Below are positions 6,497-10,158 of a stretch of DNA of 64,000 bases, piece by piece. The position numbers and the translations under genes are program-made. Position 1 is the stretch's first letter, and each line of letters begins with the position of its first letter. The DNA comes from a bacterium (lineage in GTDB: Bacteria > Myxococcota_A > UBA9160 > UBA4427). Below the pieces are notes generated by a model. The model was not told the DNA's origin. It was given only the letters and a program-made list of their open reading frames with translations, and made no database searches. The DNA is taken from positions 372,001 to 436,000 of the forward strand of contig JANSYR010000004.1 of the NCBI GenBank assembly GCA_024742285.1. Reading direction: 5' to 3'.

Positions 6497-7804
6497 TCAG
6501 CCCTTGATCCAGGCTTCGATGTCGTCCGCGGTCTTCGGAATCGAGCGGGTCAGATTGAGGTGCCCGTCTTCGGTGATCACGACGTTGTCTTCGATCCGGA
6601 TGCCGATGCCCTTGAAGCGATCCGGGGCGTTCGGATCGTCCGGGGATACGTAGAGGCCCGGCTCGATGGTATAGGCCATGCCCGGGGCGAGCGGACGCGG
6701 GGACGGCTTCTCGTCGCCGTTCTTCACGACGTAGGCGCCGACGTCGTGGACGTCGAGACCGAGCCAATGGCTCGTGCCGTGCATGTAATAGGGCTTGTAG
6801 GCCTCCTTCTCGATCAGGCCGTCGAGGTCGCCCGAGAGGAAGCCCAGGTCGACGAGCCCCTGGGTGAGGACGCGGACCGTCGCCATGTGGACCTCGGGAA
6901 GAGTCCCGCCAGGGCGGCTCACTTCGAAGGAAGCGAGCTGGGCAGCGAGCACGAGCTCGTAGAGCGCGCGGGCGGCCGGCTCGAAGCGGCCGTCGACCGG
7001 ATAGCAGCGCGTCACGTCCGACGCGTATCCCTCGAGCTCGACACCCGCGTCGATCAGGACGACTTCGCCCGCGGCGAGCGGTTGGTCGTTCGTGATGTAG
7101 TGGAGGATCGTCGCGTTCTTTCCCGAGCCGACGATCGATCCGTAGGCCGGACCGGATCCGCCGCGCGCCCGGAAGGCGTAGGCGAGCTCGGCTTCGAGCT
7201 CGTATTCGTGGCGGCCGGCGAAGCAGGCGCGGGCGGCACGGTGGTGGCCCTCGAGGCTGATGTCCGCGGCGCGCTGCATGATCTCGATCTCGGCCGGGGA
7301 CTTCACGAGTCGCATCTCGTGGACGAGCAGTCGCGGGTCGATCAGCTCGTTCGCCGGGAGGACGCCGCCGCGGGACTGTCGGCGGATCTCTTCCTGGAGC
7401 GCGACGATCCTGGCGTCGATCGCCGCGTCGCGGCCGAGCACGTGGTAGATCCGCGCCGCCCCGCGAAGGAGATCGGGGAGCTTCGCGTGGAACGCTTCGA
7501 TCGGGTGGGCCTCGTCGGCGTCGTAGTCGGCGACCGCGCCATCGACGCCGGGGCGGTATCCGGTCCAGATCTCGGCGTCGCGATCGCGCGGCTGGACGAA
7601 GAGCGTGAAGTCCGGACCTTCTCTGGTCGACAGGACGGCGATCGCGTCGGGATGATCGAAGCCCGTCAGGTACCAGAAGTCGCTGTCCTGGCGGAAGGGG
7701 TACTCGGTGTCGGCCGAGCGCACGGCGAGGCGTCCGCCGACGAAGATCGCGACGGCGTCGGGGCCCATGGCCTGGAGCATCTGCTGGCGCCGTTCGGCGA
7801 ACAC
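6497..7804 (-). CDS. pepP: Xaa-Pro aminopeptidase (aminopeptidase P)
   Basis: This M24-family dinuclear metallopeptidase cleaves N-terminal residues before proline. The 435-residue protein has the aminopeptidase P N-terminal domain (about 1-135) and the pita-bread catalytic domain. Metal ligands are visible in LIDAGVELEGYASDVTR (two Asp), HGTSHWLGLDVHD (His), TIEPGLY (Glu) and RIEDNVVIT (Glu). It is the first gene of the pepP-acs-gdhA run. Its 5' side faces the long non-coding region at 7805-8571. Confidence 0.95.
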   Translation of the reverse strand: MFAERRQQMLQAMGPDAVAIFVGGRLAVRSADTEYPFRQDSDFWYLTGFDHPDAIAVLSTREGPDFTLFVQPRDRDAEIWTGYRPGVDGAVADYDADEAHPIEAFHAKLPDLLRGAARIYHVLGRDAAIDARIVALQEEIRRQSRGGVLPANELIDPRLLVHEMRLVKSPAEIEIMQRAADISLEGHHRAARACFAGRHEYELEAELAYAFRARGGSGPAYGSIVGSGKNATILHYITNDQPLAAGEVVLIDAGVELEGYASDVTRCYPVDGRFEPAARALYELVLAAQLASFEVSRPGGTLPEVHMATVRVLTQGLVDLGFLSGDLDGLIEKEAYKPYYMHGTSHWLGLDVHDVGAYVVKNGDEKPSPRPLAPGMAYTIEPGLYVSPDDPNAPDRFKGIGIRIEDNVVITEDGHLNLTRSIPKTADDIEAWIKG

Positions 7805-7958: not shown

Positions 7959-8079
7959 CTGCCACCTCGGGCGGCAGACGCCTCGAGCGGCACCGCGATT
8001 CAAATATCTGATTTTGTTGAATAAAATCGATTCTCGAGGTGCTTCCGAAGACCGTGTCGACTCTTGCTGCCACCTGGGG
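7959..8079 (+). promoter_or_regulatory. Repeated 13-bp motif, possible enhancer sites
   Basis: Two copies of CTGCCACCT followed by C or G and GGG occur at 7959-7971 and 8067-8079 (12 of 13 bases identical), 108 bp apart. Each has a GTGTC a few bases upstream. They lie about 235 and 130 bp before the predicted sigma-54 start site, a usual distance for binding sites of sigma-54 activators. The function is inferred from spacing only. Confidence 0.35.
7981..8039. repeat. AT-rich nested inverted repeat
   Basis: CCTCGAG (7981-7987) is mirrored by CTCGAGG (8033-8039). Inside, GATTTT (8010-8015) pairs with AAAATC (8023-8028) around a 7-base loop. About 35 bp of AT-rich sequence is unusual for this GC-rich window. 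It may be a regulator or IHF site for the sigma-54 promoter downstream, or part of the pepP promoter region on the other strand. Confidence 0.4.
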
Positions 8080-8174
8080 ATGCAGGCACCCGGTCGCGGC
8101 CCGAGGCCGCTGAAGATCCTCGAAAGTCCTTGGAAAACAGGGAGTTGAGAAAAATTCGAAACTTTCTGCGCGGT

Positions 8175-8190
8175 TGGCACGCAACGTGCT
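8175..8190 (+). promoter_or_regulatory. Sigma-54 (RpoN) promoter
   Basis: TGGCACGCAACGTGCT matches the sigma-54 consensus TGGCACG-N4-TTGCW at all but one position, with GG (-24) and GC (-12) correctly spaced. The upstream 25 bp is AT-rich. Transcription would start near 8201 on the plus strand, into sequence that has no ORF but many strong hairpins. Confidence 0.6.
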
Positions 8191-8200
8191 CTTACAGGAG

Positions 8201-8515
8201 CCAAGAACGATCTGGAATACTGGCTGGCCCGGGCGGTTTAACACGGGCGCGTTCGTCCGGGCCGGCCAGTAAATCCGGGGAGTGAGGAGTCCAGCCCCAC
8301 CAACGATCCATCGGGTGGATCAGGGGCAAGACTAGATCAAGGCGCTTTCCCCCAGACTGCACCCCATTCACCTCGCTCCCCGGTTTCCAGATCGGACAAG
8401 TCAATCCGGTCGATCCCCCGCATCGTCGACCGGCGTAGACAGGAGATTCCCCTCCTGAACGCGAACGCCCCGCTCGACCCTTTCCAGGGACCGAGCGGGG
8501 CGTTCGGCGTTTCGG
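8201..8515 (+). ncRNA. Putative sigma-54-dependent structured RNA
   Basis: No credible ORF lies here, but strong stems follow one another. 8219-8232 pairs with 8257-8270 (14 bp). 8275-8287 pairs with 8371-8383 (13 bp) and encloses 8288-8291/8330-8333, 8294-8298/8323-8327 and 8305-8310/8316-8321. Then come 8406-8413/8426-8433 (8 bp), 8440-8445/8452-8457 (6 bp) and a 15-bp terminator-like stem. Both imperfect pairs in the two longest stems are U-G on the plus strand and would be C-A mismatches on the minus strand, which argues for plus-strand transcription. I could not match it to tmRNA, RNase P RNA, SRP RNA or 6S RNA. The 5' end is inferred from the promoter and the 3' end from the final stem. 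Confidence 0.55.
8462..8506 (+). terminator. Intrinsic-type terminator hairpin, possibly bidirectional
   Basis: CGAACGCCCCGCTCG (8462-8476) pairs perfectly with CGAGCGGGGCGTTCG (8492-8506), a 15-bp stem with a 15-base loop, followed on the plus strand by GCGTTTCG. It lies at the end of the putative ncRNA and 66 bp beyond the stop of the convergent RNase D gene, so it could end both transcripts. Confidence 0.7.
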
Positions 8516-8571
8516 GCGCCGTCTCGGGTGTCGTCGTTCGCATTCTTCGCGACGACGAGCGCCCGGCGTGA

Positions 8572-10158
8572 TCAGTCTTCGGACTTCGCCTTCGATGCGC
8601 CGCTGGTTTCGCCCGCCTTCTCGTCCCCGTCCGTCTTCTTGCGGGCGCGGCGAGCTCGTTTCTTCGCGCGCGAGGCTCCGGAGCGTCCCCGTCCGCCGCG
8701 TCGACTCCGCTTCGGCTTGTCCGGCTTCTCTTCGGCCTCCTTCTCCGCGGCGGCGGCGACGTCGGCATCGTGTCGTTCGATCACGCCCAGGATCTCGTCG
8801 GCGAACTCGCGCACGAACCAGGCCTTGAGCTCCGGCAGCCCCTTGAGGTCCTTCGCGTTCGTCGGGGCTGCCCAGGCGATCGCTTCGAGCGCCGCGTTCG
8901 GGCAGAGCACGCCGGGGTCGAGCTTGAGCGCTTCCGCCCGCGGCCCGCGCCAATCCTTGAGCGCGCCGAGTCGCTTCTCGGTCTTGCGATCCATGCGCCG
9001 CCGCCCGCTCGTCTCGAGCTTCGGGATCGGGCCATGAGGCTTGCGCAGTCCCTTCTTGACCGCGCTCACGAGATCCTTGCCGAGTCGCTTGAGGATCAGA
9101 TCGGTGATGCCCTTGATCTCGCCCATCGAATCCAGGTCGGTGGGCTGCGAGCGACTGATCTCGAGCAGCGTCCGGTTGCCGAGCACCTTGAAAGGCGGCC
9201 GGTCGATGTCGCGCGCGCGCAGGTCGCGAAGCAGGAAGAGCTCGCGGAGGATGGCGAGCTCCGTCGGCTCGAGGCTGCGGGCGCCCTTGATCCGCAGATA
9301 GCCCAGCTCGTCGAATTCGCGGTCGGGCCAGCGCCTCCCGCAGAGGGTCTCGAACTCGTCCATCGCCCAGTCGAGGCGCTTGGCCTTCTTGAGCTCCTTC
9401 TCGAGGCTCTCTGCGAGCTTGATCAGGTAGAGCACGTCCGACGCCGCATAGCTGAGCTGCTTCTCGGTCAGCGGACGCCGCGACCAGTCCGAGCGCTGCT
9501 CGTCCTTCGGAAGCGACACGCCGAAGTGTTTCTCGATCAACGCAGCGAGACCGATGGCCGGATACCCGAGAAGCTGGGCGCTCACCATGGTGTCGAAGAG
9601 GTTGGTGAAATCGAAGCCGCAGTCGCGCTTCAGGACGTAGATGTCGTACTCGGCGGCGTGGAAGAGGACGCGGACCTTCGGCGAGGAGAAGACCGACGCG
9701 AGGGGGGCGAGCTTGTCCGGCCCGCCGATCGCGAGGGGGTCGAGCAGCCAGCACTTCTTGCGGGTCGCGACCTGGACGAGGCAGACCTTGTCGAAGTAGT
9801 GGTAGAAGCTGTCCGCCTCGGTATCGAAGGCGACGACGTCTTCCTTCATCAGTTCCTTGGCGACGGCTTCGAGCCCCTCGACCGTGTCGACGATCTCGAA
9901 GTCGTCGCGTTGGGCGACGCCGGCGCGGCTCGACCCGGACTTGCCGCTCCCCGAGCTCGCCTTCGTGGAGCGCGAACTCGATGCGGGGCGTGAGGACTTG
10001 CCCTTCTCGCTCGTCTTCCGCTCGCTCGATCTGCCTGCGCCCGATGATTTTCTGGATTGGTCGGCCAATGCACTCTCTGTGGCTGCCAGCCCGGCTGGCA
10101 GGGACGCGGGGGTCGGCGACGACGGGCCATCGCGGCCGATCGGGTCGATTTCGGTCAA
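8572..10158 (-). CDS. rnd: Ribonuclease D with long low-complexity tails
   Basis: This is a 3'-5' exoribonuclease of the DEDDy family. The core has exo I (VAFDTEADSFY), exo II (HAAEYDIYVL), and exo III (YAASDVLYL with the catalytic Tyr and Asp), then one or two HRDC-type helical domains (about 285-460). Two features are unusual. A Ser/Lys/Gly-rich stretch of about 80 residues precedes the nuclease, and a highly basic Arg/Lys tail of about 60 residues follows it, bringing the length to 528 against about 375 in E. coli. The tails may bind RNA. The start used is TTG at 10158, and a start within the low-complexity region cannot be excluded. Confidence 0.9.
   Translation of the reverse strand: MTEIDPIGRDGPSSPTPASLPAGLAATESALADQSRKSSGAGRSSERKTSEKGKSSRPASSSRSTKASSGSGKSGSSRAGVAQRDDFEIVDTVEGLEAVAKELMKEDVVAFDTEADSFYHYFDKVCLVQVATRKKCWLLDPLAIGGPDKLAPLASVFSSPKVRVLFHAAEYDIYVLKRDCGFDFTNLFDTMVSAQLLGYPAIGLAALIEKHFGVSLPKDEQRSDWSRRPLTEKQLSYAASDVLYLIKLAESLEKELKKAKRLDWAMDEFETLCGRRWPDREFDELGYLRIKGARSLEPTELAILRELFLLRDLRARDIDRPPFKVLGNRTLLEISRSQPTDLDSMGEIKGITDLILKRLGKDLVSAVKKGLRKPHGPIPKLETSGRRRMDRKTEKRLGALKDWRGPRAEALKLDPGVLCPNAALEAIAWAAPTNAKDLKGLPELKAWFVREFADEILGVIERHDADVAAAAEKEAEEKPDKPKRSRRGGRGRSGASRAKKRARRARKKTDGDEKAGETSGASKAKSED

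Follow-up and report, generated by a model that had tools for sequence, protein, structure and literature searches.

A previously unlisted family of structured RNAs behind a conserved sigma-54 promoter in Myxococcota

Comparison of homologous sequences establishes that the gap between pepP and rnd in the window (the whole stretch of 64,000 nucleotides that was analysed) holds an RNA gene of a previously unlisted family, in which the RNA, its structure, its strand, its promoter, the sites upstream of the promoter and the terminators are all conserved. The original prediction, an undescribed structured RNA with a sigma-54 promoter, is confirmed as an observation and supported as an interpretation on this comparative basis; that reading had overlooked both enhancer sites, the connection with rnd and the three-way junction at the core of the RNA.

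Fold and parts of the RNA in the window

On the plus strand, the stretch 8190-8530 folds at -184.6 kcal/mol (z -8.25), with none of 100 shuffled sequences folding as well; the minus strand of the same stretch stands out less (z -6.16). A three-way junction forms the core; it is closed by helix P1 (GAUCUGG/CCAGAUC) and bears two arms with near-invariant loops. Loop A (GGGCGCG), which does not vary among the 47 sequences of the first alignment, sits at the end of P2, and P3 presents AGGCGCUUUCCCCCAGAAYGGCACCCCGCC, with CUUUCCCCCAGAAYGGCAC as its loop. The locus contains the following features:

6497-7804, minus strand: pepP-like M24 aminopeptidase gene, the upstream divergent neighbour
7960-7976, no strand assigned: candidate activator palindrome 1, TGCCACCTCGGGCGGCA, of the form TGCNNC-N5-GNNGCA, 215 bp 5' of the -24 element, in the family cluster at about -215
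8068-8084, no strand assigned: candidate activator palindrome 2, TGCCACCTGGGGATGCA, 107 bp 5' of the -24 element, in the family cluster at about -107
8175-8190, plus strand: sigma-54 -24/-12 promoter, TGGCACGCAACGTGCT
8201-8506, plus strand: the RNA, whose start would lie at about 8200-8203, as judged from the -12 element
8209-8215, plus strand: 5' strand of P1, GATCTGG, pairing with 8387-8393 and closing the three-way junction
8219-8235/8254-8270, plus strand: P2 hairpin, 17 pairs, two of them G-U
8245-8251, plus strand: loop A, GGGCGCG, in the loop of P2
8275-8287/8371-8383, plus strand: P3 arm, 13 pairs, one of them U-G, presenting motif B
8294-8327, plus strand: extra hairpin inserted in P3, found elsewhere only in two close congeners (L002, L003)
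8340-8365, plus strand: motif B, AGGCGCTTTCCCCCAGACTGCACCCC, the conserved C-rich loop region
8387-8393, plus strand: 3' strand of P1, CCAGATC, partner of 8209-8215
8406-8433, plus strand: genus-specific hairpin, read from sequence and fold
8440-8457, plus strand: genus-specific hairpin, CAGGAGATTCCCCTCCTG, read from sequence and fold
8462-8476/8492-8506, plus strand: terminator hairpin, a perfect 15-bp stem with a weak T-tract
8572-10158, minus strand: rnd, encoding RNase D (DNA_pol_A_exo1 and HRDC domains), the downstream convergent neighbour in conserved synteny

The strong stem systems and terminator-like final hairpin described from the window alone are recovered as P1, P2, P3, three further hairpins and the 15-bp terminator-like stem. 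Although an ORF at 8064-8285 spans the promoter, coding potential was rejected, as the spacing from loop A to motif B in the family shows no reading-frame bias (19, 18 and 14 in the three frames).

The T-tract after the terminator hairpin of the window is weak (GCGTTTCG), and good T-runs are found in most homologues. In most loci, a terminator hairpin with a T-run follows 3-10 nt after P1, so that the usual RNA of the family would be about 170-185 nt long. In the genus of the window, additional hairpins, some within P3 and others separating P1 from the terminator, bring the RNA to about 310 nt; the length of about 300 bases expected earlier therefore holds for this genus but not for most of the family. 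As a separate observation, the sequence CGCATC recurs in the 130 nt that follow P1 at 17 of 67 loci, where 2.5 would be expected. It mostly falls within the terminator-hairpin loop (for example in L033, L035, L047, L050, L103 and L128) and is a possible third conserved element; in the window it stands at 8419-8424. In L040 and L015, the DNA separating the RNA terminator from rnd holds short tandem repeats (TAAGACTG units), some 80-150 nt beyond P1.

Homologues and covariation

Because aligning all homologues with MAFFT put the stems in the wrong places, the structure was built up through covariance models that started from two near neighbours. The first model, built from only these two sequences, matches 48 of the 79 genomes of the order, at one place each, and a model of 47 sequences matches 61 of the 79; it finds nothing in the 11 class genomes that lie outside the order, nor at any place outside the order in a search of 377 genomes of the phylum. 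Blastn, the promoter and loop A add five further members of the genus of the window, together with genome G014, whose copy is shortened, and bring the homologues to 67 of the 79 genomes of the order, mostly draft MAGs, against none of the 11 genomes from elsewhere in the class. Only one genome (G061) has two matches, of equal score and on two contigs (L116, L117); with 8% contamination, the duplicate is perhaps an artefact of assembly or contamination.

With blastn against 60 relatives, every member of the window's genus shows the same intergenic region, and at the level of family and order short conserved pieces are retained, namely the promoter and AAGGCGCTTTCCCCCAGA..TGCACCCC. Scanning 84,980 species for the latter piece returned 36 stretches. 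Those that also have the promoter and the other loop belong to MAGs labelled Deltaproteobacteria, Myxococcota or something vaguer, including isolate UBA9160, and the stray matches in other phyla lack both the promoter and the other conserved loop. By these searches, the family is confined to one order of Myxococcota, probably GTDB UBA9160.

Rfam 15 assigned no family at gathering score anywhere in the window; permissive matches over the RNA stretch were weak and nearly all on the opposite strand, and 16 homologues gave no match at E<=1, which agrees with the earlier placement of the RNA outside the known families. It is scarcely conceivable that this is the order's unrecognised 6S RNA, a reading that draws on the similar length (about 180 nt), the single copy and the failure of RF00013 to find a 6S RNA in any of 20 relatives. 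The fold, a three-way junction whose hairpin loops are conserved, lacks the single long hairpin and central bubble of 6S RNA; the promoter is of the inducible sigma-54 type, and no Rfam 6S score is obtained.

Covariation in homologous regions, proposed beforehand as a check, was found. Among 67 distinct sequences, in an alignment that had been fitted to the model, 88.8% of cells are standard pairs (63.9% when shuffled), and double changes occur in 40 of 42 pairs, with 696 double-change cells against 225 in shuffled data. The covariation score is 0.603, compared with 0.203 when shuffled and 0.05-0.11 when slid by 1-3 columns; the first alignment, of 47 sequences, gave a similar result. P1 is paired in 93.4% of cells and shows double changes in all 7 of its pairs, as does P2 in all 16 modelled pairs, and RNAalifold predicts the same P1, P2 and P3 from the same alignment. 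P4 (GGCG/CGCC), at the base of motif B, is only weakly tested because it is mostly invariant and is absent in the window's genus. Family-wide, G-U cells outnumber A-C cells (204 versus 50), from which it follows that the plus strand is the RNA; the strand argument first drawn from the U-G pairs of the window is thus borne out across the family.

Each arm can go missing alone. L034 lacks P2, the arm of loop A, and in L027 loop A is changed or lost, with motif B kept in both; conversely, motif B is missing from L119, L006, L007 and the G014 copy (L151), all of which keep loop A. This pattern suggests two binding surfaces that can be separated. Kissing between loop A (GCGC) and motif B (GGCGC) was considered and rejected: motif B varies (GTTGC, GTCGC, GGCAC) while loop A stays constant, and the arms are lost singly. 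Both loops are too conserved for covariation to test their binding partners, and proteins are equally possible as their ligands.

Promoter, upstream palindromes and neighbouring genes

The near-consensus sigma-54 promoter first noted at 8175-8190 proved to be an exact -24/-12 match, the single match to TGGCACN6TGCW in the 64 kb, and it is kept at all 68 homologous loci. At each of these, a -24 element of the TGGCAC type lies 12-29 bp 5' of P1, and the -12 element is TGC except at nine loci, which belong to family f4; the GG at -24 and the GC at -12 stand at fixed spacing within a TGGCAC-N5-TTGCW context. The promoter score is at least 9.7 at every locus, with a background rate of 0.0036 per 65 positions for scores of at least 8. 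In the nine f4 loci (L013, L028, L031, L032, L045, L101, L112, L115 and L120), the -12 element reads TGAA, TGTA or TGGA instead of TGCT, a clade-wide deviation that is unusual for sigma-54 and is accompanied by a still perfect -24 element. The rpoN gene is present in 83 of 90 genomes of the class. Because a sigma-54 promoter is gated by an activator, expression of the RNA is predicted to be tight and signal-dependent.

In 280-bp regions upstream of the promoter at the 68 loci, 17-bp TGC-N11-GCA palindromes (TGCNNC-N5-GNNGCA) occur 55 times, compared with 0.4 in shuffled sequence and 0.2 in the remaining DNA of the loci, and across the family they form two position clusters, at about -107 and about -215. 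Judged by sequence, they qualify as enhancer-binding-protein sites of a sigma-54 promoter and have the outline of NtrC-family sites. The genome holds 22 exact sigma-54 sites, and a TGC-N11-GCA palindrome lies within 350 bp upstream only at the RNA locus and at one amtB. The amtB promoters of the order (L163-L192) combine sigma-54 elements with palindromes of the TGCCC-N7-GGGCA type, likely the NtrC site of the clade, and the TGCNNC-N5-GNNGCA type was not found next to amtB promoters of the same genomes. NtrC itself finds no support as the activator, since the half-site at amtB (TGCCC..GGGCA) is not shared by the palindrome of the RNA locus; because these half-sites differ, the activator is probably an NtrC-family protein other than NtrC.

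The gene order pepP(-), RNA(+), rnd(-) is kept in nearly all loci with enough flank, with a gap between pepP and the RNA that is about 1 kb longer in some. A gene that is single-copy and keeps its place points to vertical inheritance. The RNA lies 3' of rnd and convergent with it in essentially all such loci, and action in cis, by which converging sigma-54 transcription or antisense overlap would control the expression of RNase D, might be read from this arrangement. Such control is very unlikely: the terminators end tens of bases or more before rnd, interference would not need the structure and the loops, rnd persists where the RNA is gone, and single-copy vertical descent accounts for the synteny. 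Some genera have cleanly lost the RNA. In genus g11 (L144, L146, L147), rnd is kept and pepP is nearby, and RNA, promoter and palindromes are all absent, a loss across the lineage although rpoN is kept. Loss of rpoN was rejected as the reason for a missing RNA, as all 11 genomes of the order that have rnd without a full model match possess rpoN.

Proposed function and relation to known small RNAs

The reading favoured here, with moderate confidence, is that of a trans-acting sRNA under the control of an activator and sigma-54, which would pair with its targets through the C-rich loop independently of Hfq. In the proposed sequence of events, an NtrC-family activator would bind both TGC-N11-GCA palindromes (at about -107 and -215), DNA looping would bring it to the sigma-54 RNA polymerase at 8175-8190, and transcription would fire and then stop at the hairpin ahead of rnd. 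The RNA would adopt its three-way junction, with two independent arms exposing GGGCGCG and CUUUCCCCCAGAAYGGCAC as functional surfaces, and the C-rich loop may pair, without Hfq, with G-rich sequence near the ribosome-binding sites of target mRNAs. Transcription, the identity of the activator, the activating signal and the base-pairing mode are what we infer.

Hfq (PF17209) was detected in 5 control genomes and in none of 20 relatives of the window, so that, as far as these relatives go, the RNA does not qualify as an Hfq-dependent sRNA, whose host encodes Hfq. Base pairing through motif B is the likeliest mode of action and titration of a protein its main rival. If it were a decoy like CrcZ or RsmZ, the RNA would use its two conserved loops to titrate an RNA-binding protein and would pair with no mRNA. 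This alternative is rather unlikely but deserves weight: both loops are near-invariant over the order, more so than a flexible antisense seed needs, Hfq is absent from the 20 relatives, and a search of ten genomes for motif-B complements ahead of ATG returned seven matches, two of them the RNA itself and the rest unrelated, with no consistent or shared target. Decoys typically carry repeated sites, whereas each RNA here has one loop of each type; moreover, a conserved unpaired GGA motif for CsrA was not seen, and the arms are lost independently.

Pairing through the C-rich loop, the preferred mode, has a precedent in the UCCC-loop mechanism of sRNAs in Firmicutes. These LhrC/UCCC-motif sRNAs (PMC4132741) are a precedent for Hfq-independent C-rich loops, and they share with the present RNA a C-rich hairpin loop as presumed seed; they differ in sequence, structure, promoter type and phylum, and pairing is only proposed here. 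For Qrr, CrcZ and GlmY/GlmZ of gammaproteobacteria, too, a noncoding RNA is under the control of a sigma-54 promoter and of activator palindromes that lie upstream of it. The present RNA differs from them in having no Rfam match and another activator site, and Qrr and CrcZ act on or depend on Hfq, which was not found in the 20 relatives.

To our knowledge, Pxr is the sRNA of this phylum that has been studied in depth. It is a developmental gatekeeper, a sigma-54-driven sRNA of the Hfq-less host Myxococcus xanthus in which one C-to-A change in the SL1 loop abolishes function (PMC5684412). SL1 carries GGUUCCCCCC according to published primers (PMC5568312), and RNase D processes the RNA (PMC10217877). 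The resemblances to the present RNA are considerable (PMC10217877, PMC5684412, PMC5568312): the same phylum, a predicted sigma-54 promoter with an upstream enhancer region and an NtrC-like activator, a host without Hfq, a terminal terminator hairpin, and an apical hairpin loop with UUCCCCC (motif B here; positions 13-33 in PMC5568312 for Pxr, in which the loop is essential). RNase D figures in both, as processor of Pxr and as mere neighbour here, a link that may be coincidental.

These likenesses could be taken to mean that the RNA is a highly diverged orthologue of Pxr, which has a very small probability. The pxr gene lies directly downstream of pxrR/pxrK, whereas the neighbours here are pepP and rnd. 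Pxr, reported only in Cystobacterineae, is 108-111 nt long, with three tandem stem-loops and no loop A. When the primer-printed parts of an inferred ancestral pxr (PMC5568312), of which 14 nt are unknown, were aligned with two family members, the scores stayed within those of shuffles. As the Pxr parts align no better than shuffles, locus and fold differ, and the family model is restricted to the order even among 377 genomes of the phylum, the RNA is best regarded as a new family, probably one that works like Pxr and other activator/sigma-54-driven sRNAs.

A broader view, speculative and doubtful at present, is that Hfq-less Myxococcota use a separate class of C-loop sRNAs fired by an activator and sigma-54 and matured by RNase D, in which the present order-wide RNA, always found beside rnd, would be a further counterpart of Pxr, of independent origin and conserved more deeply, with GGGCGCG as a second invariant loop. 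The finding adds a well-supported RNA family, conserved in promoter, enhancer sites, structure and terminator, to a Myxococcota order of uncultured organisms, and it makes testable both the mode of action of trans-acting RNAs in Hfq-less bacteria and the question of whether RNase D generally takes part in the maturation of myxobacterial sRNAs.
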